From Xylogone sp. PMI_703 (lineage: Eukaryota; Ascomycota; Leotiomycetes), in the NCBI GenBank assembly GCA_021399445.1, contig JAJTUQ010000004.1:4650001-4714000 (forward strand): a DNA stretch of 64,000 nucleotides, read 5' to 3'. Position 1 is the first letter of the stretch. Each line of letters opens with the position of its first letter. The notes under the pieces are model-generated. The model made no database searches, had not been told where the DNA came from, and worked only from the letters and a program-made list of their open reading frames with translations. The position numbers and the translations under genes are program-made. Below are positions 32,877-48,593 of this stretch, piece by piece.

Positions 32877-35210
32877 ATGCCGTTATGCGAGAGATGCGAT
32901 CAGTTCTTCCATGGCAGAGTCTTCGAATATACACAGGGCAGCACATATTGGCAGGCCAGTATAACTGATCATTATCCCCATCATATCTCCCTTTCCTGCT
33001 TCCTCGAGGCGGTGGATCAGAAGTGCTTTGTATGTTGGCGCATATTTTATAACTCCTTCAACCGTCGCACTAAAGTGAAAAGACACCTGGAAAAGATAGC
33101 GCGTGCCATCTCACACCCCGAAATAATAGCTCAACGATCGCAGCTCTCCTTAAAGCAACGATGCGTGACTTTCATCTGGGGTGGTTTCAATCGGATAATG
33201 CCAATGTTTAATGGAGAGTTTCTCAAGGCACTAAGAATTTGCCATGACACTTTGTCTGAGCTATTCCCAGATATTGAGGCTGTTGAAAAGGATATCAGGG
33301 GTGATGAACGTGATGAGATGGGACGTGGAAGGGGGTTCATAGTCCTTGTTCCTCGTGAGCAATCAAGTATGTTGCTCATTCATGCTTACCTGGCAAATAC
33401 TCTCTAATTATCTTCCTTCCTTGCAGGTATGAATACGGTGTTATCGCCTTCCACAGCATCTGATCAGACATTCTTAAATATCAGCACCTGGATCCGTCAT
33501 TGTGAAGCAGAGCATACTCGATGTACATATCTTAGAAGTAAGGTTTCATGGTATCCAACCAGACTCTTAGATGTCGGTACCCAAGGCAACACCCTCATTA
33601 GACTCGTTCATAGCGGACAAAGTGTGGGCCATGGTCAGAGTTATATGACCCTGAGTCACCGTTGGGGAGCCTCCAAAGTCCCGACACTCAGTACTAAAAC
33701 CATAGATGCCTGGGGTAAAGGTCTTTCTATCCAGATATTGCCTCAGACGTTCCAAGAATTCATTACGCTAGCTCACCGCCTGCAAGTTCGCTATGTCTGG
33801 ATTGACTCCTTATGTATTATTCAGGAAGGTGATGCGGGTTCCGACTGGAGATCCGAGGCTCTTACCATGGACCAAGTTTATATGAACTCGTACTGTAATA
33901 TCTCAGCTGATTGGGGGTCTGAAAAACGTGGGTTGTTCTTTCAGAGGGACCTTCGAATGCTAGATAAGCCTAATGTTAACTTACGTGTTAAGAAGGAACC
34001 TAACTGGGACTCGATTACTATAGAGGAGCGCCTGTTGGTTGAAAGCGAGTTCTGGGAAGACTCAGTTTCTAAGTCACCGTTAAGCAACCGAGGCTGGGTA
34101 GTACAGGAACGTTGGCTATCCCCGAGAAACATACGTTTCGGTCCGCGAGAGGTGTTTTTCGAGTGCAGTCACCACACATTATGCGAAAGATTCCCAGAGA
34201 GCCTTCCACAGATCCTCCGCGAGGGAGACACGATTCTCAAGGCTATCTTTGGTGAAAGCCAGATGCCAAATGCCTCTCCAGCGATATTTGAGGTAGTCGT
34301 CCCTGGCACCGTACTCTATAACGCCTGGAGTGATGTTTTGACAAAGTATTCCAGATGCTATCTTACCTTTGCAAGTGATCGGCTTGTGGCATTTGCAGGC
34401 ATTGCAAAGTTCTTCCAAGCCATTCTAAATGACAGATACATTGCGGGCCTGTGGCAACGGAATCTAGCCTATGACATGATGTGGTTTCGAGATGACATCC
34501 TCACCACAGCTGTCATCAAAGACTCCAAAGACCACCTCTGCCTATTCGAACGAAATCAAGCTGACCAGTATCGCGCACCTAGTTTTTCATGGGCTTCGGC
34601 AGAAGTACCAATATCACCACCAAATCGTTTGAATAGTAATTTTGGTTTCCTAGTCGATGTTAAATGCATTAAATTCCGCTCTGGTCTCAACGTTCCAGTA
34701 GAAGAGATGACTGAAGATATATTCGGTCCCATGCTTAGTCCCACTATCGAAGTCATAGTAGTAGGAAGCCTTAGAAAAATGCGTCTCCTACCATACTTCA
34801 ATAGCCGTGAGACAGAGTTATACGCTGCACCAGGCGGGCCGCCTGCTGTCTTCAACAAGTTAGAAGAGACTAAGGACATATACAGAGACGCAGAATTGGC
34901 AAAGCTTGACTTTCAAATTAGCAAAGATGACATTACAGCATGGACTTCTAATACAAACCTGTATTATATGCCGTGGCAGGACAACTGGGATCCACGCTTG
35001 CCAGACTCCCTTGAAAGACATAAAAACTTCACTTGCTTGCTATTAGAGCTCGTAGATTCTAGCATGAGCCGCTTTCGTCGCATTGGCCGGATGTTTGGGG
35101 AAACCAAACGGCTGAAAGATATCTATCTTGCGCCTCAGGGGGATGAAGCCAAATTGCCATGTGCACATTATGATGCTAATACTACGCAATGCACGATATA
35201 TATTATTTGA
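32877..35210 (+). CDS. HET-domain protein (heterokaryon incompatibility)
   Basis: Exon 1 (32877-33366) and exon 2 (33427-35210) join over a 60-bp intron (GTATGT to TGCAG) to 757 aa. The first 160 residues carry Cys pairs (CERCDQFF, CFVC) typical of the region before a HET domain. The HET domain itself begins near residue 210. Its blocks are YMTLSHRWG (236-244), YVWIDSLCIIQ (286-296) and RGWVVQERWLSPRNI. Proteins of this type trigger growth arrest or cell death when incompatible hyphae fuse, and some act as resistance-like immune genes. No NACHT or repeat domain is fused. Its position at the edge of a repeat-rich compartment fits the fast-evolving nature of HET genes. Confidence 0.92.
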
Positions 35211-36397: not shown

Positions 36398-36829
36398 TAA
36401 CGTAATTCCTGGTCTGTCCGGCCACCTGGTCGGTCCGGCCACCTTAAATCTACCGTAAAATCGAGAAATTTCACTCTTTAATAACTCAACAAATATGTTA
36501 TTATATTTGACCAAACTTTAGAATCTATTTATTTATATAATAATTAATAAGTATATAAATTTTGATGTAATTAGTATATATGGTTTATACTGTACAATAA
36601 AATAACCTTGAATTCAAAGTCTGAAATCTAGTTTAACTATATATTAATACTTTGAAAACAAAATGACTAAATATTTAGAATTAAACTATAGTAACTAACT
36701 GTCTTACAAAGTTTTACCTTCTAATATTATATAGTTGTTGAGTTATTAAAGAGTAAAATTTCTTGATTTTGCGGTAGATTTAAGGTGGCCGGACCGACCA
36801 GGTGGCCGGACAGACCAGGAATTACGTTA
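36398..36829. mobile_element. MITE with about 100-bp terminal inverted repeats
   Basis: The element is 432 bp. Its ends TAACGTAATTCCTGG and CCAGGAATTACGTTA are perfect inverses, and the match goes inward for about 100 bp with only a few differences, mostly C/T or G/A as expected from RIP. The TA at each end fits a TA target duplication of Tc1/mariner-type transposons. Inside each end, CTGGTCTGTCCGGCCAC and a near copy are tandem. The middle is AT-rich and non-coding, so it must be mobilised by a transposase elsewhere. Confidence 0.85.
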
Positions 36830-37395: not shown

Positions 37396-38701
37396 ATGGA
37401 GATCTTTCTAGTCTTTGCTGCCTTAGTCGCAGCCGCTACTGCTCAATCTTTGTCCACTCTTCCTCCTTGCGTCGTGAGTTTTTTCTCGTCAGCCATCATC
37501 ATTACTGGATTACAATCAGCTAAGGCACAGTAATGTGAATATTAGAGCGGCTGTGTCATATCTACTGTTCAGAATTTTACAACCTGTGGCGTTGACGACT
37601 TTGCTTGCCAGTGTCTGGCTTCTAACCGTGAACTCATTGAGAGCGAATCCACCTGCACCTTTAGCTGTTCTGCGCAGGATCAGGGAGGTACGTTAACTTT
37701 TTATTTTCTATGGCAAGCAATAAAGGTTGACTAAGTTCTATATAAAGCGGTCCAAGATTTCTATAATATTACCTGTTCTGATGTATATCCTTACGTCCCG
37801 CAGAATCCTCCTCCTACCTCGGACCAGATCGCTGCTGCTGCCGCAGACTACGCTGCGCAACCTCCTTGCGCTGTAAGTGCCACTTCTAATTAATTCATTT
37901 GGAAAAGTTGACATTGCCTAATACTCCTACAGCAGCAGTGCCTTAACGATACCATTGCGGCAGACGGTCAATGCGAGGTGACTGATCATTCTTGCCAGTG
38001 TAACCCCTATAATATCTTTCGGCTTTCGGATGCGTCAGCGGCTTGTATCGCTAATGCCTGCCCAACTGCGGCAGAGCAGACTCGTATGCGAATCTCAACC
38101 TCATATCCGCTTTCTAGATATAGAGAAGGCTGACTATTTCTCTCGGACAGTTATCCAGAACCTCCTTACAGCCATGTGCGCTGATATTGGGGAGCCACTA
38201 GGAGGTCCCAGTAGTAGTGGCGCTACCGCTTCTGCTTCTGTGATTGAGTCTGCATCACCCACTGGAAATCCCAATAACAGCAGTGTTGCTAGTTTTACTT
38301 CAGCAACTTTGTCCGTATCGTCTACTGAGATAGTCGAATCTGAGACCATTATAAGTATGTCATATCAATCACAATTCGATGGTGGAACTGATAGCTTACC
38401 AATAGGCACCATAACTGCTTGCCCATCGTGGGTTACGGACTGCCCAAGTCGATCAAAGTCTAACAGCGCCATTCCAATTACCACCACCTATAGACCCGTT
38501 TCAACCAAGAGTGTCTACTACAATCATACAGTTGGCTCCACCCAAACTCGACCCATAGGTTCAAGCGTACCTTCAAGCTCTTTAATCAGCTCGACAACTT
38601 CTCCAAGTCCGCAGCCTTACATTAATGCAGCCAGTATTAAGGCGTTAAACACATCCGGGGTCGTATTTGCTCTTTTTTTGGCCATTATTTTTACCATATA
38701 A
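37396..38701 (+). CDS. Double-CFEM, probably GPI-anchored surface protein
   Basis: Five exons (37396-37473, 37546-37687, 37748-37872, 37933-38083, 38151-38701) join to 348 aa. Residues 1-16 form a signal peptide (ending ATAQS). Two CFEM-type Cys modules follow. The first runs from PPCVSGCV through FACQCLAS to CTFSCS. The second runs from PPCAQQCLND through SCQCNPYN, ACPTAAEQT and AMCADIGEP. Each carries the Cys pattern that forms the flat haem-binding fold in known CFEM proteins. A Ser/Thr-rich linker leads to a hydrophobic C-terminal tail (VVFALFLAIIFTI) that fits a GPI signal. Likely roles are haem capture, adhesion or host interaction. Two modules in one protein are less common than one. 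The intron after the EQT residues resembles the usual CFEM gene layout. Confidence 0.85.
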
Positions 38702-39420: not shown

Positions 39421-39692
39421 ACTTAACACCATCAATCTATTCTGTGTTTATTGTTACAGTTTTGGCAATTCTAAGAGAACTTCTCCTTTTATTGACAATT
39501 ATGTACCTGTAACGTTGGCTATTAGCTCTTTGGTGTAGAAAAACGGGAAGTAAACTCCATTGCGGGGTGAACACTAGTGCTCTGGCTCTCTACCTTCCTC
39601 CAAGTACCTTGTTGGCCAGAAAGGGTTGGATAGAAGATAATTGCGATGGCAAACACTCTGAAGTGACTCGAGAGAAAGACACGCTTGGGCCA
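39421..39692. other. Leader-side flank of the repeat array
   Basis: No gene or repeat core is visible here. It borders the array and is the natural place to look for a promoter if the array is transcribed from this side. Confidence 0.35.
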
Positions 39693-42482
39693 TTGCCAAG
39701 TGACTGCGACGTGCAACAAAATAATACAGAGGTTATATAGCGCTCTCACCGAGATTTGACCGTGGCGAGAAACCAAGATGCCAAGTAGATGCGATATGCA
39801 ACAAAAAAATCCACGGAATAATACATCCACACCTGGAAGCACACTTATTTGACGGTTCGGGCTTGGCTGCGGTCGTGAATTGCGATTTCGCCGTGCACGT
39901 ACAAGAAAGAAGGATGACTTTGAGTAGTGAACGGCTCGAACGGCAAGTCAATGCCGTGCTAAACGGCTTATTCCCGAAACACCACCTCCCCGGATATGGC
40001 ATTTGCTGTTCGGAGTGCCCGAAACGGCAATCGCAGAACAAACCAACGGCATCAGAGAGAAAGGGCACGCTACGGTCGCTTGCCAGCTTGGCAGATACTG
40101 CGATTTGCAACAAAAAATAAAACAGAATAAGATGCTAGATGAGAGGATGACGTCGTTGATTCATTCGGAGTAATTGGAGCTTATTCTGTGGAGCCTGCAT
40201 GCAGCCAAGTTACTGCGATGTGCAACAAAATTTTTGGGATTCCTCTTACCAGACACTGTATGAGATGAATGGTTGGATATCTTCATGCTCTTTCTGAAAA
40301 GGATAGCGTGAGCATGATCCCCTAGTCTCAGTTAGATTGCCTTGGCACTTGGTGCGATTTGCAACAAAAAAGGACAGTTCTTTTGAGGATTTGGAAGATG
40401 TCTATCATCGCTAGATATTTGGCCAAAACGCTATTCTTCGACCAATGCCAGCCTTTCATATTTATCTTTAGGATTTTTGTTGCGTATCGCTGCTAATGCC
40501 AAGAAAGGTTAGTCAGTAGAAGTGCATTCCAAGAGATGTATGTACCTGTGTTTGTTGCATATCACAGCATATGCCAAGCGTCTTAGACAAACACAGTATC
40601 TATCATTTCTCTCAGGGGACCTTTTTTTTGTTGCACGTCGCAGTAGAAGCCAAGCCCTCTCAAGCATTTTAGCGTTACCTTTTGCTGCCCGGATGGTATT
40701 ATATGGCAACGCAGGCAGCAGAAGGGTTCCACGGTGCTTGTGCCTTGGCATGCAATGCGGTGTGCAACAAATAAGACCTCGTTCTTTCTCTGGGTCTTGG
40801 CAACAAGTGCAATATGCAACAAAAGTACGAGCAAACACTCTGGCAATCTCAGTCGTCTTTTCATAGGTGGAGGTACGGTGACGTACAATAGATGGAGCTT
40901 CTTTAGTGTTATATCTCTCTTTCGTGGCTAAGGGCTTGGCAGAGAGTGCGATGTGCAACAAAAGTATGGGAAATCATTGAGAGAAACCCAGCTATCTTCT
41001 AATAGGTTGGAAATACTCTGACGTATAATAGAATTAGAAGGTGTCATATCTCTATCTCACGTTTGGGTCTTGGCAGAAAGTGCGATGTGCAACAAAGTAG
41101 ATGCAAACTCTGAAAAAGACATGCTATTTGATATCTAGAATATCTTTCAGGCTTGCAGAGAGTGCGATGTGCAACCAAAAATTAGGAGACTCTTGTGTAT
41201 GGAACACTATCCAGCCATAGAAGCCTTGGCATATACTGCGATTTGCAACAAAACCTACCTTGCTTCTTGTCTAGATGGTCACTCCCCTGTCCTGATATGC
41301 AACAGAACCCACTGTCAGTATAAGTCTCACGAAGATACAATGGAAGCGTTAGTTAGCAGTAGGTAAATGAAAGCTCGTTACTAGAATTTAACGAACAAGC
41401 GAACTAGGTGCACAGAAGCTCACTGCTACTAGTTAGAAGCTTGATCCTGGCTCCGATTTGCAACAAAAGAGAAGTCCCAGTTCTAAGACCATACAAAAGG
41501 TTAGAGACCAGTCGAACAAAGTCATGACCCCGGCTGCGATTTGCAACAAAATTTTGGGTTTATCTAACTAGAGACTTGGCAGATACCATGATTTGCAACA
41601 ATCCAGATACTTGTAGCTTGATATCCTATCAGCAGATGGCTTGACTTCACGCTACAGTATAAAGGACATTGTCTCACTAATAACTTGACAGCAAATGCGA
41701 CATGCAACAAAAAATCACAGCTGTTCAATCTTGACTGCTCTCATGAGCTAGTCTAATTTTGATTCTGACGTGCAACAAAAAATGGGGAGAATCATCCATA
41801 GTAAGACATAAGAACGCCACACTCTACAGCGACTTGCAACAAACTAGTGATCATCCCATAGTTCCTTTGTTCTATTGTCTTGGCTGATCTTGCGATTTGC
41901 AACAAAAGACAGGACATAACCTCAAACAAGGCGATTTAAGAGCCTGACCCCTGTCTCCGATGTGCAACAAGGAACTTCCCAAGTGCTAGTACAATGGCAC
42001 ACCCTTGACAGCGATGTGCAACAAAAGGCAAGACATACCCTCAGACATGACGAAGAAATACAGATTTAGAAGCCTGACCCTTGACTCCGACGTGCAACAA
42101 ATAACCTCTTAACTGCTAGTACAATGGCCCATCCCTGACAGCGATGTGCAACAAAACTTTGTGACATCTTTGTTCTCTTGAGTTAGCACTTCCTCTAGCG
42201 TGCAAGAAGATTCAAAGCACGTCTCTCTCTGCAGAAGATGCGAACCATCCTTGTCTCCGATTTGCTTGTCGCCTGGCGCCTTGGCATATACACCGATGTG
42301 CAACAAAAATAATGAGGCATAGATGTCTGTCTGTTTGGGGCATAAACCCTATGATGTGCAACAAAATAAATAAAGTCGTCTTTGCTGAGAGAGATAGAAC
42401 GCTAGATGTTTGATGACGACGCACAGAGGTACCAGGAATATACGCTACACACCTTGGAAGCAAGTGCGATGTGCAACAAAAT
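39693..42482 (+). repeat. Interspersed short-repeat array, about 29 units, CRISPR-like in layout
   Basis: I count about 29 copies of a core whose 3' half is TGCGATKTGCAACAAAA, usually preceded by CTTGGCA and five or six variable bases. Cores begin near 39693, 39778, 40087, 40198, 40341, 40474, 40550, 40622, 40742, 40793, 40933, 41068, 41152, 41223, 41283, 41442, 41523, 41574, 41685, 41757, 41822, 41877, 41944, 41996, 42072, 42126, 42279, 42341 and 42450. The copies at 40474, 40550 and 40622 are inverted. Between cores lie about 25 to 130 bp that mostly do not resemble each other. Spacing is irregular (about 53-160 bp between cores, one gap of 309 holding a decayed copy near 39862). No cas-like gene or open reading frame spans it. 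It could be an old minisatellite with a constrained core, a protein-binding array, or a non-coding RNA locus. Confidence 0.9.
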
Positions 42483-43178: not shown

Positions 43179-44850
43179 ATGGGTAAGACAGACGACATCG
43201 CACGGACAACCGACAATGTGGTAGATATAACGATTGAAGATACAGAAAATGCTCAAGATGTCATTTCCCGGAAGGTCTTGCGAAAGATCGACTACCGATT
43301 GATCCCACTCATATTCGTTACCTGCAATTTCTTCTTCATGGACAAGGCCATTCTTTCCAGCGCTGCAGTCTTCCAGCTTCGCGAGGACAATGTTAGTTCC
43401 AGTTTCAACTTCATACCCACACCTTGTTCTTAATCCATACCGTCAGCTCACAACTTTCAGCATCTTCACGGTCAGCAATATAGTTGGGCATCAAGCGTGT
43501 TTTATTTTGGCTACCTCCTGTGGATGTATCCTACCAGCCTTCTATGCGCTCGTCTTCCTATTGCCAAATACCTTGCCACCAACACGTTGATCTGGGGAGT
43601 GTTGGTGGGTATTACTGCTGCATGTAGCAGCTACGGTGGGTTAATCACAGTGCGCTTTCTACTAGGAGTAGTAGAGGCAACTATTGATCCAGCTTTCATA
43701 TTGTATAGGCGTCTTCAATCTATACATCATTGAGATATAGTTCTAAGTTATAACTGTAGTATTACATCCACGTGGTATACCCGCGACGAGGCACCGACAC
43801 GAACAGGAGTCTGGTTTGCTGGGAATTCTATTGGTGGCATCATCAGCAATCTCTTTGCCTATGGCGTTGGGCATATCAAAGATGGTCTTCACCCGTGGAG
43901 GTGGATGTACATCGTCCTCGGTGTCTTAACCCTTTCTTTGGGCATTTGGAATCTGGGCATTGCTGCCGGACAACATCTCGAATGCTAAATTCCTTACCGA
44001 GGAGGAGCGTAAATTTGCAAGGGACCGAATCGTCATTGCAGGGACTGGACAGACAGAAAAGACTATCTTTCGGTGGGATCAGTTAGTGGAATGTCTAATT
44101 GACCCAAAGACTTGGCTACTATTCGCCATCACTCTCTGTGCGCAGATCCCCAATGGCGGTACGCAAAATTTTGGCAACTTAGTGATCGAATCATTTGGCT
44201 TCTCCTCAATTGACTCGACACTGATTCAGATCCCCCCAGGCGTGATTGCTGCAAGTACGATCGCGGGAACTGGTTACTTGGCTGGACGATATAGGAGTCT
44301 TCACTGTCTGCTGATCATTTCTACGGTATTACCGCCCATCTGTGGAAGCGCAATGATCTACTTGCGATCTCATATCTCAAAGGGCGTGCAACTATTCGGA
44401 TACATGCTCTTGTCGACCGGTCCCGCTCCTGTTCCGCTTATCATGTCTATGGTTCAGACGAACTATAAGGGTGTGACGAAGAAGATGACCATGACGGCGC
44501 TCTTATTCTTTGCGTACTGCGCGGGAAATATTGCAGGTCCACAGTTATTCAAGAGTACAGAAGCGCCAACTTATAGTTCGGCATTCAAGGCTATTATGAT
44601 TTGCTATTCGCTGGATGTCGTTTTCTGCGTGATGTTGCGATTCTATCTGCAATGGATGAATACTAAGAGACAGAATATTGAGGGCATTGATGGAAGCGCG
44701 GGAACATCTGGTGCAGTAGCAGGTGGGAAGATTATTGAACTTGGAAATCATAGTAATCTCGGTGGTGCGGTTCAAGAGGTGGCGCTAAGGGAAGAGGACT
44801 ATGAAGATGTCACCGATTGGAAGACAGTTGGCTTTAGATATCGATACTGA
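43179..44850 (+). pseudogene. MFS transporter (allantoate-permease/Dal5-like) with a frameshift
   Basis: Exons 43179-43391, 43461-43702 and 43760 onward splice in phase and read as an anion:cation symporter of the Dal5 family: RKIDYRLIPLIFVTC, YFGYLLWMYPTSLL, VRFLLGVVEA, STWYTRDEAPTRTGVWFAGN and HPWRWMYIVLGVLTL. At about 43950-43962 the frame shifts by one base. The first frame stops at 43986, while the family sequence resumes in the next frame as LPDNISNAKFLTEEERKFA and runs to the stop at 44850 with the remaining membrane segments. No AG acceptor lies in the short interval, so an intron cannot explain it. If the frame were uninterrupted the protein would be about 515 aa, normal for the family. 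Either the gene is recently dead or the assembly has an indel. Confidence 0.8.
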
Positions 44851-45510: not shown

Positions 45511-47369
45511 ATTGATTATGGAAGTTGAGTGAAGCAGTGTGTTCTAGTAATACAAGACGTAAAATTAACAACGTATGGCTTCCAGAGCCGTAGAAGATAA
45601 AAACGAAATATGAGAAAGTATGGTTCTTCCTTTTCTATGTTGATGATTGTATCGCTATTTAAACAGAAGCAAAGGAGGCTACATCGTAAGTTGAGTATCA
45701 TCGCTTATACCTAACCTCCTGGTTTACGATGGTTTTAGAAGCCGACTACTATGAGGTGAAACGTGAGCTGTGACAATTTCTCCATCCGATGTTGAGTCTT
45801 CATTCTACCGTTACAGTACTGGTAGTGAACACCCACGGGTTTCAGGGTTCTCCACGAACCACAGATGGTCGGTTAGGGAGTTAACCTCTCCGTTTCATCT
45901 CCAAAGAAGAATGGTGCGGGACTCGGCAGAATAGCTGAGGCGCCCCTGAAAACAAGGGGATTCGCCTCGGTTACAGTAGACCAATTGATCTTGCGATAAT
46001 ACGATCATGACTTCTGGCCGACATTCAAATATCGGGCGGAAGTATACTGACAATTTGATCTAACTCATATGAAGAGGATTGCCTTTCTCACTTGCTTTGC
46101 GATAACTATAAAAAATAAGATCATACCACTTGACTTAGCTTAAAATCTATAGAATCTAATAAAATTATAATACTATACTCAAGGCACAATATTTGGTAGG
46201 GATACTCAAAAAGCCAGAGAGAGGCGAAAGATTGGGGAACGGCCCGGCCCATTGGCTTACGGGCCGGAACATATTCTTGAGCAAAGTAAACTCAGTAAAG
46301 TAACTTTACCACAGCCTTGCGCTGACAAATCTGGCACCCGCGACCACAGAGCATTCTCAAGATTCGTTACCAAAGTCTCTTCAGTGCATTGCTTAAGTAT
46401 CTGCATCCACGATGAAAAAGCTCTACTGCTGACTATTGCCAAATTCACAGTCACATGGAATCGAAGAAGAGAAACTTGAACGGCAGCCGCCACGGCCTAT
46501 CCCGTGGCATTTTGACTTCCTCTCAATTTTATCCCCGCTCCCAGACGGAGCTCACGAAAATGATGCCGTTGATCCATCGCTTCTTTGTTTAGTCTGTGAA
46601 AGATTTCGAGCATATGTTAAATCGAAGTTTCCTCCTCGCCTTGTTGGCAGCAGGAAAACTAGGGTATTCACGCACTACTCAACTGGATCTGCACTTGAGA
46701 TTTCCTATAAGTAAGCGTGCAGTCTTTGCAGCTTGATCTGGTACAGCCTCATTCGAACGCCAACCCCACTTGATCGTTTCGGTGAACCTAGGCAGTCAAA
46801 GCCAGTCACGTCGAATGACCTTGAAAGCGTCCGAAAAGCAACAAACATCCACATCACCATTTCTAGTGTAGACTTCGGGGACAAAGAAAGTCCTTAGATA
46901 GTAGTCCGGACCACATCTCCTCCTTCTTTATCGCGCAAATCCAATTTCCATCCACCGACCGGGTTAGTTCTAACCCGGATCCCGATCATTAGCTTTCAAT
47001 AAAAAAAGGCTACATTACAAAGCGAGCTAATAATCATTATTCATAATTTAGGAATTTAAGTGTTTTTGATCTTTGTTTCGCCTAAACTATATAAGGATTT
47101 GATCTCTAAAATCTCACACGCTTAATTGTGGATCTTTTCTAGTCCAGTTCTCCTAAATGTTAGATTATGCGGTAGTGTCGCGACGGCTGTTTAGATACGG
47201 TGTTCCGATCGCTGTCTATATTTATACGCACTTCCCGCATTCCTTAATGAGCCCTCGATGGCGAGACCTAGTTCTAGCTTGAAGCAGGGTACTGTAGGGA
47301 CCTGTATGCGTGCTCCTCACCCACGAAACTTGGAATATCATCTTATCTGTTAACCTGAAAACGGAAATT
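45511..47369. other. Intergenic region with possible gene fragment
   Basis: About 1.86 kb. A short frame near 46436-46714 contains SLLCLVCERFRAYVKSKFP, which loosely recalls the Cys region before HET domains, but it has no ATG in a good context and stops soon after. It may be a relic. The rest is AT-rich with nothing recognisable. Confidence 0.45.
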
Positions 47370-48593
47370 ATGGCAACAGAGCCAATACAACTATTACTAC
47401 TGCCAGAACCACAAGAGTTTCACCTCTTCCCACATCTTCCGCCTGAGCTACGTCGCATGATCTGGCGAGAGTGTCGCCCGCATCGAGTGATTGAATTAGA
47501 CTCGCCTCACCCGGATGAAGTGGACGACACTACTTGTAGGTTATATAACCCTACTTTGGTCAACTCTCGACCCCCAATAATCTCAAGAGTATGTCGTGAA
47601 TCACGTGAAGTAGCTTTCGAGGATGGTGCAGGTGTTTTAGGGCGGGGAAGATATAACGGTATTATTTTTCCTCAAATGTTTGGTCCGGGAAACGCCACTG
47701 CCGTAAATTGCCCATGGTTTAGTCCAACCACAGATATTGTTCACCACAACTGGAATGAAGGCGAGAATCCTTTTCGTCCATGCCGTGTTACCCCGTTTTC
47801 CTTTTTCCAGACTGTTGCAGCCACAGCCATTGCAGCATCCATCGATAAGAGTTTCCTACATAAGTTGAACGGCAATGACACAAACTTCTCTCCTTACATA
47901 GACAAAGATCTTACGCTGCTAGAACATCAGAAGCATTACTTTGTTACAATATACATGGTAACACTTCATGTGTCTATAGCCCAAGCTGCACGTTCCGGCT
48001 TGTTTGGAAGACTTGTCGAGGAACGTGTTAAGCTAATTGACGCTGCGGACACGAAGACCTTACACAAGTATTATTATCTCTGGCTTGAGGGACCACGAGA
48101 AGATGAAGAGCCGGCAGAATTCTTTAACTTGGCATTGTCGGGCAATCGTTTTCAAGGCCCCGTGCTAGATTGGAGAGAAGGGAACAACGTCCAGTGGATC
48201 GGACACAAGTGGAAGAATGGCGGAAAAGATAGCGCTGAAAACCCTGAACAAGTTTGGTTCAATCCAGAGAAGGATGATGTTTGGCCAAAAGTAACACCAT
48301 TTGGTGTACCCAACATAAATCATCCCTGGGTTAAGAAGACATTAGAGGATATCCCACGATTCACTCCAATGATCATGTTTCGTCTCTGCGAGCAAAAGTG
48401 TTTCCTCCCGCCATCTCAGCCTCCATCTCCACCGCCGAGCTATCTTCGGTCTATATCGGACATACAGGACTGGAGGCAGATGCAGCGACATAGAGAGAAG
48501 TACTTGAAGCCTCAGAGAAGTGTTACGACCCATGGCGGACCTCTTCGACCCCTTCTCCGTGGCACGAATTTACTACCACGTTATAGGGCTTAG
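47370..48593 (+). CDS. 2EXR-domain protein
   Basis: A single exon encodes 407 aa. The N-terminus has the 2EXR signature FHLFPHLPPELRRMIW (residues 17-32), followed by RPHRVIEL and PPIISRVCRESREVA, which complete the domain of about 100 residues. Fungal genomes carry many such proteins; their function is not known, although they resemble F-box-like recognition modules in some annotations. The remaining 280 residues are not recognised. The C-terminal 70 residues are rich in Pro and basic residues (PPSQPPSPPPSYLRS). The ATG at 47370 was chosen over an upstream GTG because it directly precedes the domain. No intron is needed. Confidence 0.82.
   Translation: MATEPIQLLLLPEPQEFHLFPHLPPELRRMIWRECRPHRVIELDSPHPDEVDDTTCRLYNPTLVNSRPPIISRVCRESREVAFEDGAGVLGRGRYNGIIFPQMFGPGNATAVNCPWFSPTTDIVHHNWNEGENPFRPCRVTPFSFFQTVAATAIAASIDKSFLHKLNGNDTNFSPYIDKDLTLLEHQKHYFVTIYMVTLHVSIAQAARSGLFGRLVEERVKLIDAADTKTLHKYYYLWLEGPREDEEPAEFFNLALSGNRFQGPVLDWREGNNVQWIGHKWKNGGKDSAENPEQVWFNPEKDDVWPKVTPFGVPNINHPWVKKTLEDIPRFTPMIMFRLCEQKCFLPPSQPPSPPPSYLRSISDIQDWRQMQRHREKYLKPQRSVTTHGGPLRPLLRGTNLLPRYRA

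Follow-up and report, generated by a model that had tools for sequence, protein, structure and literature searches.

The repeat of the STB partition locus of the 2-micron plasmid is near 62 bp long, and the meiotic pairing centres of Caenorhabditis elegans are dispersed motif clusters bound by zinc-finger proteins, with one region per chromosome. STB is described as a locus of tandem repeats at which partner proteins bind (PMC3610928), and the zinc-finger proteins of the pairing centres as HIM-8/ZIM (PMC9908027). In fission yeast, RTS1 stops forks from one side only, and its region B, ~450 bp long, carries four repeated motifs to which Rtf1 binds, a Myb-domain protein that the same source calls S. 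pombe-specific beyond its Myb-like domain (PMC10473836). The consensus given for PacC is GCCARG (PMC3618310), and the recognition of interspersed homology during RIP in Neurospora is described as sensing short homology units at near-helical spacing (PMC4858203).

How does the present locus compare with these systems? RTS1 likewise is a block of repeated, oriented motifs in a fungus, but it is one locus with four repeats, whereas we find 14 helically phased arrays of 2 to 28 units; among the systems checked it is the nearest functional fungal analogue, by likeness of layout and not by membership. The left half of our site, TGCCAAG or CTTGGCA, contains GCCAAG in both orientations and so fits the PacC consensus; PacC or a relative is therefore a candidate, but only for that half. 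The present site differs from a PacC/Rim101 site in being a composite, long and of fixed make-up, whose right half is conserved; GCCAAG is missing from many units, and the arrays often do not lie upstream of genes. STB, again compared by layout, shares the repeated binding locus but belongs to a plasmid, whereas our arrays are dispersed over chromosomes; the pairing centres are similarly dispersed but form an animal system with a single region on each chromosome; and RIP recognition has a comparable near-helical spacing but concerns pairing of homologous DNA, with no fixed motif. No fungal system with such a layout is known to us, and the titles and abstract beginnings surveyed contain no description of such arrays.

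In the window, by which we mean the whole 64-kb stretch of DNA analysed (C20:4650001-4714000 of a 50.1-Mb assembly in 25 contigs), 27 cores match TGCGATKTGCAACAAAA at up to three mismatches, all of them within 39705-42481, with 24 on the + strand and three on the - strand (40475-40642). Chance matches in 100 dinucleotide shuffles averaged 0.34 and never exceeded 3. Scanning with a 29-bp profile added a 28th unit, with its core at 41587, and a right-half scan added a weak 29th core at 41291. The array is thus confirmed: an earlier note on this DNA had counted about 29 copies, usually with CTTGGCA before the core, and this offset is fixed in most units. Adjacent same-strand units of the array lie 52-309 bp apart, core to core. 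The features of the window are as follows.

39693..42481, +: array of 28 scored units (25 on +, 3 on -) and one weak right-half core
39693..39721, +: unit, left half reversed (TGCCAAG), profile score 33.8
39778..39806, +: unit, left half reversed, profile score 28.2
40087..40115, +: unit, profile score 44.4
40202..40230, +: unit, left half reversed (GCCAAG), profile score 34.7
40341..40369, +: unit, profile score 40.0
40475..40503, -: inverted unit, profile score 32.1
40550..40578, -: inverted unit, profile score 33.0
40626..40654, -: inverted unit, profile score 40.9
40744..40772, +: unit, profile score 32.2
40796..40824, +: unit, profile score 33.2
40935..40963, +: unit, profile score 44.2
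41069..41097, +: unit, profile score 41.6
41151..41179, +: unit, profile score 26.5
41225..41253, +: unit, profile score 43.5
41291..41307, +: weak right-half core, 54 bp past the preceding unit, from the right-half scan
41440..41468, +: unit, variant left half, profile score 29.1
41523..41551, +: unit, variant left half, profile score 32.2
41575..41603, +: unit, seen by profile scan only, profile score 22.0
41684..41712, +: unit, profile score 36.7
41752..41780, +: weak unit, right half only, profile score 14.0
41816..41844, +: weak unit, right half only, profile score 15.9
41879..41907, +: unit, profile score 37.5
41944..41972, +: unit, CTGACCC-type left half, profile score 20.6
41998..42026, +: unit, variant left half, profile score 27.5
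42074..42102, +: unit, CTGACCC-type left half, profile score 28.4
42128..42156, +: unit, variant left half, profile score 25.2
42280..42308, +: unit, profile score 38.6
42338..42366, +: weak unit, right half only, profile score 11.1
42453..42481, +: last unit, profile score 42.6
39681..39685, +: ACGCT element (candidate third element), 12 bp before a unit
40067..40071, +: ACGCT element (candidate), 20 bp before a unit
41649..41653, +: ACGCT element (candidate), 35 bp before a unit
42399..42403, +: ACGCT element (candidate), 54 bp before a unit
42442..42446, +: ACGCT element (candidate), 11 bp before a unit
37912..38133, +: exon of a CFEM-domain gene, co-directional upstream neighbour (CFEM E 6e-6, above its cut-off), followed by a further open frame running to 38701
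43434-43733 and 43930-44850, +: two open frames of an MFS transporter gene, downstream neighbour (MFS_1 E 2e-6 and 2e-7, both under the curated cut-off)

The window also contains a MITE-like element in AT-rich DNA at 36398-36829, with 138-bp inverted arms that are 85% complementary, lie 156 bp apart and each hold a tandem 17-bp repeat, and a 2EXR-family gene past the MFS gene (47298-48593, +). No Rfam family matched anywhere in the window, and no tRNA was found in it.

When 95 units drawn from 13 loci are aligned, they define a composite site of 29 bp, CTTGGCA-N5-TGCGAYKTGCAACAAAA, in which five loose bases separate the halves (with A favoured at -2); the flanks outside it are flat and carry little information. 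The motif totals ~34 bits, a figure inflated by the picking of units on the right half alone, and the conservation of the right half is for the same reason partly a matter of construction. The left half is an observation independent of that selection. CTTGGC stands at its fixed place in 48 of the 95 units, and its reverse complement GCCAAG occupies that place, shifted by one base, in nine units from three arrays, so that GCCAAG in one orientation or the other is found there in 57 units and is absent there from the remainder. Further variants of the left half, CATGGAA and TTGATCCCTGAC, recur in several arrays. That the half-site is usable in both orientations is a property of a double-stranded DNA site.

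The earlier note had proposed looking for the same core elsewhere in the genome, and it is indeed present there: the array of the window is one of 14 found, with 2 to 28 units each and 102 units altogether (100 in 13 arrays by profile scan and two in L029). Genome searches, whose counts are lower bounds, returned at least 86 matches to the core at up to one mismatch and none to the reversed pattern, and at least 70 matches to the full motif at up to three mismatches against none for the control. Three variant left halves used as genome queries led to no additional array, and the full-motif pattern had no match in the viral or the prokaryote collection, as expected for a fungal element. In each of the 12 other arrays profiled, all units scoring at least 9 lie on one strand; in the window, three of 28 are inverted. 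Seven of the 14 arrays are on contig C1, which makes up 18% of the genome (p 0.007); this contig also holds, exclusively, two of the three groups of homologous arrays described below. The eIF3a gene flanking another array has a 91% match, and its best named matches, among the best 120 of 2883, are in Stipitochalara longipes (84%) and Hyaloscypha bicolor (83%), both Helotiales (Leotiomycetes), which places the host fungus near Helotiales.

Eight further loci were left out of the arrays and of the phasing analysis: L011, L022, L023, L025, L026 and L028, which have right-half matches only, without CTTGGCA, and L024 and L027, which have no unit at score 9. Among them, L011 and L022 contain one pair each, 108 and 97 bp apart. 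Right-half words (CGAYNTGCAACAAA) gave at least 102 matches against 3 for the reversed control, and 31 of 100 listed places lie outside the 14 arrays. Many of the latter read CGACGTGCAACAAA, and part of them may be due to coding words, for example GAC GTG CAA CAA. Right-half cores are all that L011 (412-536) and L025 (4652-4948) show of the motif, and these two loci have another repeated sequence in common, which may mark a cousin family that has diverged and carries another left half.

The spacing of the units follows the helical repeat of DNA. Among 81 spacings between adjacent units (52-161 bp core to core, from 13 arrays; longer ones exist), 61 fall within 2 bp of a multiple of 10.5 bp (p = 2e-8), and the rule holds for the 65 spacers lacking detectable homology taken alone. 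Gaps above the cut-offs and mixed-strand neighbours are excluded from these sets, and L029 lies outside them: its two units are separated by 173 bp, a distance that an intervening weak core divides into 109 and 64 bp. The sites are thus whole turns apart, as in a helically phased protein-binding array. By blastn at E 0.01 the 81 spacers form 72 homology clusters and so are not all copies of one long unit; had they been, this would have counted, by the earlier note's own test, against its reading. Could slippage in a 10-bp subrepeat have produced quantised spacing neutrally? Exact 6-mers recur at 9-12 bp within the spacers 10 times against 4.4 in shuffles, and autocorrelation of the spacers at 10 and 11 bp is absent (z -0.8 and -1.5); we reject slippage on the latter ground.

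Three groups of arrays, L013/L016, L014/L020 and L009/L012/L015, are homologous beyond the motif, and in them the motif is 89-100% identical against 67-77% for the rest. L013 and L016, which share a copied segment of ~420 bp, agree at 46 of 48 motif positions and at 303 of 424 others (Fisher p 8e-5); for L014 and L020 the counts are 62 of 70 and 169 of 228 (p 0.013). The three pairwise comparisons of L009, L012 and L015 give 46/48, 48/48 and 46/48 within the motif and 95/142, 105/137 and 116/159 outside it (p 2e-5, 3e-5 and 5e-4). Their homologous first spacers measure 104, 115 and 106 bp, respectively; two of the differences are close to one turn, and the remaining one is 2 bp. Compared with L013, L016 has an additional unit of 62 bp, which points to local multiplication of units by tandem duplication. 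Selection acting on the core, one of the earlier note's suggestions, is supported by the greater conservation of the motif relative to the diverged spacers, together with the helical phasing and the use of the half-site in both orientations.

The Pfam matches of flanking frames show mutually unrelated genes next to the arrays: Ytp1 and Rsa3; a thiamine-diphosphate enzyme; MatE and HET; a DAMP1-like gene; TACC and a PALP enzyme; TFIID-18 and aldehyde dehydrogenase; eIF3a and CDC20; amylase; a KRE2-type transferase; and CFEM and MFS. The gene on the upstream side is co-directional with the units in nine of ten callable arrays (p 0.011); the exception, L018, was called from a coding score and a Pfam match under cut-off, and L010, L015, L021 and L029 are without a call. 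Where the downstream neighbour has a Pfam match, it is convergent in L009, L010, L012 and L014 and co-directional in the window, L016, L017 and L019. The arrays are intergenic and mostly 3' of a co-directional gene, several of them between convergent genes. These directions fit a 3'-side or boundary role and not a general upstream-promoter role, although the numbers are small. HET-domain (heterokaryon incompatibility) genes lie near two arrays, at 33408-35210 (+) in the window and at L012:5281-7761 (-). A different tandem repeat, with a period of 73 and 6.7 copies, occupies L013:2982-3464, ~1.5 kb from the L013 array.

We propose that the arrays are dispersed, cis-acting, cooperative nucleoprotein platforms, the best explanation at a probability of about 0.7. 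Whole-turn spacing, conservation of the motif, the flipping half-site and the lack of a fold signal in nine of ten stretches together argue for double-stranded DNA that is under selection and that proteins read from a single face of the helix. Judged from sequence, an array of proteins at the DNA level is very probable, in agreement with the earlier note's protein-binding reading, which the phasing, the conserved motif among diverged spacers and the two orientations of the half-site favour. Of that note's set of readings, this one and selection on the core are supported, and those of a CRISPR-like array, a silencing locus and a small-RNA source are not.

From the site, its phasing, its conservation and its dispersal, all directly observed, we infer the following model. 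Each array would be a series of long composite sites, with a left half CTTGGCA in either orientation or as a variant, a right half TGCGAYKTGCAACAAAA and perhaps, at one or more helix turns upstream, ACGCT as a third element. One sequence-specific DNA-binding protein, or two partners, would occupy these sites. Since the sites are whole helical turns apart, the bound proteins would be aligned on one face of the DNA and able to touch each other, which would favour a filament-like or looped complex; such a cooperative, same-face assembly is probable. Its likeliest task may be control of the local chromosome fibre, as a boundary or as a polar barrier that a fork or polymerase would meet. This is suggested by the position of the arrays, which are intergenic, mostly 3' of a co-directional gene and in several cases between convergent genes; we offer this task only tentatively. 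Equally tentative is a genome-wide architectural system, in which a dedicated complex would form oriented same-face filaments serving as polar barriers, boundaries or pairing/segregation sites; in this reading the composite site is longer than a 50-Mb genome needs.

What else could account for such arrays? Ordinary gene regulation, with each array an upstream activating or silencing sequence of the adjoining gene, is possible but doubtful. The left half could then be a PacC/Rim101-type site, GCCAAG agreeing with the PacC consensus in either orientation (PMC3618310), and the right half the site of a partner factor; helically phased sites have been described in enhancers and promoters, and four arrays (window, L016, L017 and L019) have a co-directional gene downstream. 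However, many left halves are not PacC-like, and in L009, L010, L012 and L014 the Pfam-called downstream gene is directed at the array, so that no promoter follows. Usual fungal binding sites are shorter than a motif of ~34 bits, even if this value is inflated by unit selection. The neighbours, moreover, are unrelated genes, on which ground we reject the promoter of one gene family.

That the arrays belong to a selfish or mobile element, as subterminal or partition-type repeats to which a transposase or segregation protein binds and which copying has spread, seems to us unlikely. Copying between loci did occur, as the three homologous groups show, and the crowding on contig C1 would suit such an element. 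Yet no terminal inverted repeats of at least 14 bp frame any of the six arrays examined for them, which leads us to reject transposon ends or a MITE, and the Pfam matches of the scanned flanking frames include no transposase above cut-off, with the qualification that one frame in L013, open over the period-73 repeat, has a Tnp_DNA_bind match under cut-off.

Sites for chromosome pairing or segregation, laid out like the motif clusters of nematode pairing centres, would share with our arrays the dispersed intergenic clusters of one long address and an uneven distribution over chromosomes; the clusters are not one per chromosome, however, and we hold this reading to be quite improbable. A neutral, degenerate minisatellite without function is less credible still. 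The earlier note's suggestion of an old minisatellite holds for the origin of some units, such as the extra one in L016, and neighbouring units are related to each other in L020, L021 and the window. It leaves the 10.5-bp quantisation unexplained, which extends to non-homologous spacers with no 10-11 bp autocorrelation for slippage to use, and motif and spacer identities differ (Fisher p 0.013 to 2e-5). A plain minisatellite is rejected, as TRF at score 40 gave no row inside the window array and the spacers are mostly non-homologous, local duplications notwithstanding.

We also reject a structured RNA gene or hairpin array. Compared with shuffles, nine of ten stretches show no RNA-fold signal (z -0.91 to 1.30; one at -2.21), and no hairpin is maintained, because the half-site flips while its supposed partner stays. 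Finally, a CRISPR-like or small-RNA locus with captured spacers is suggested by a conserved core amid diverse intervening DNA but has almost no standing, given core-to-core distances of 52-161 bp instead of a near-constant spacer length, inverted units and a flipping half-site instead of a single orientation, array DNA in the window that matches nothing but itself in the genome, and the fold result. Among the 14 open frames of the window scanned with Pfam, none is a cas gene.

What would platforms of this kind mean for the fungus? Phasing by whole turns that persists over unrelated spacers is the physical mark left by proteins that assemble along a single face of DNA. The same rule, whole turns across spacers without homology, could serve at little cost to screen other genomes for similar hidden arrays. 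The conserved 29-bp address in dispersed arrays offers a bait for a fungal protein complex. If the arrays are barriers, boundaries or pairing sites, fungal chromosome organisation would become open to tests at defined sites, each spanning a few hundred to a few thousand bases.
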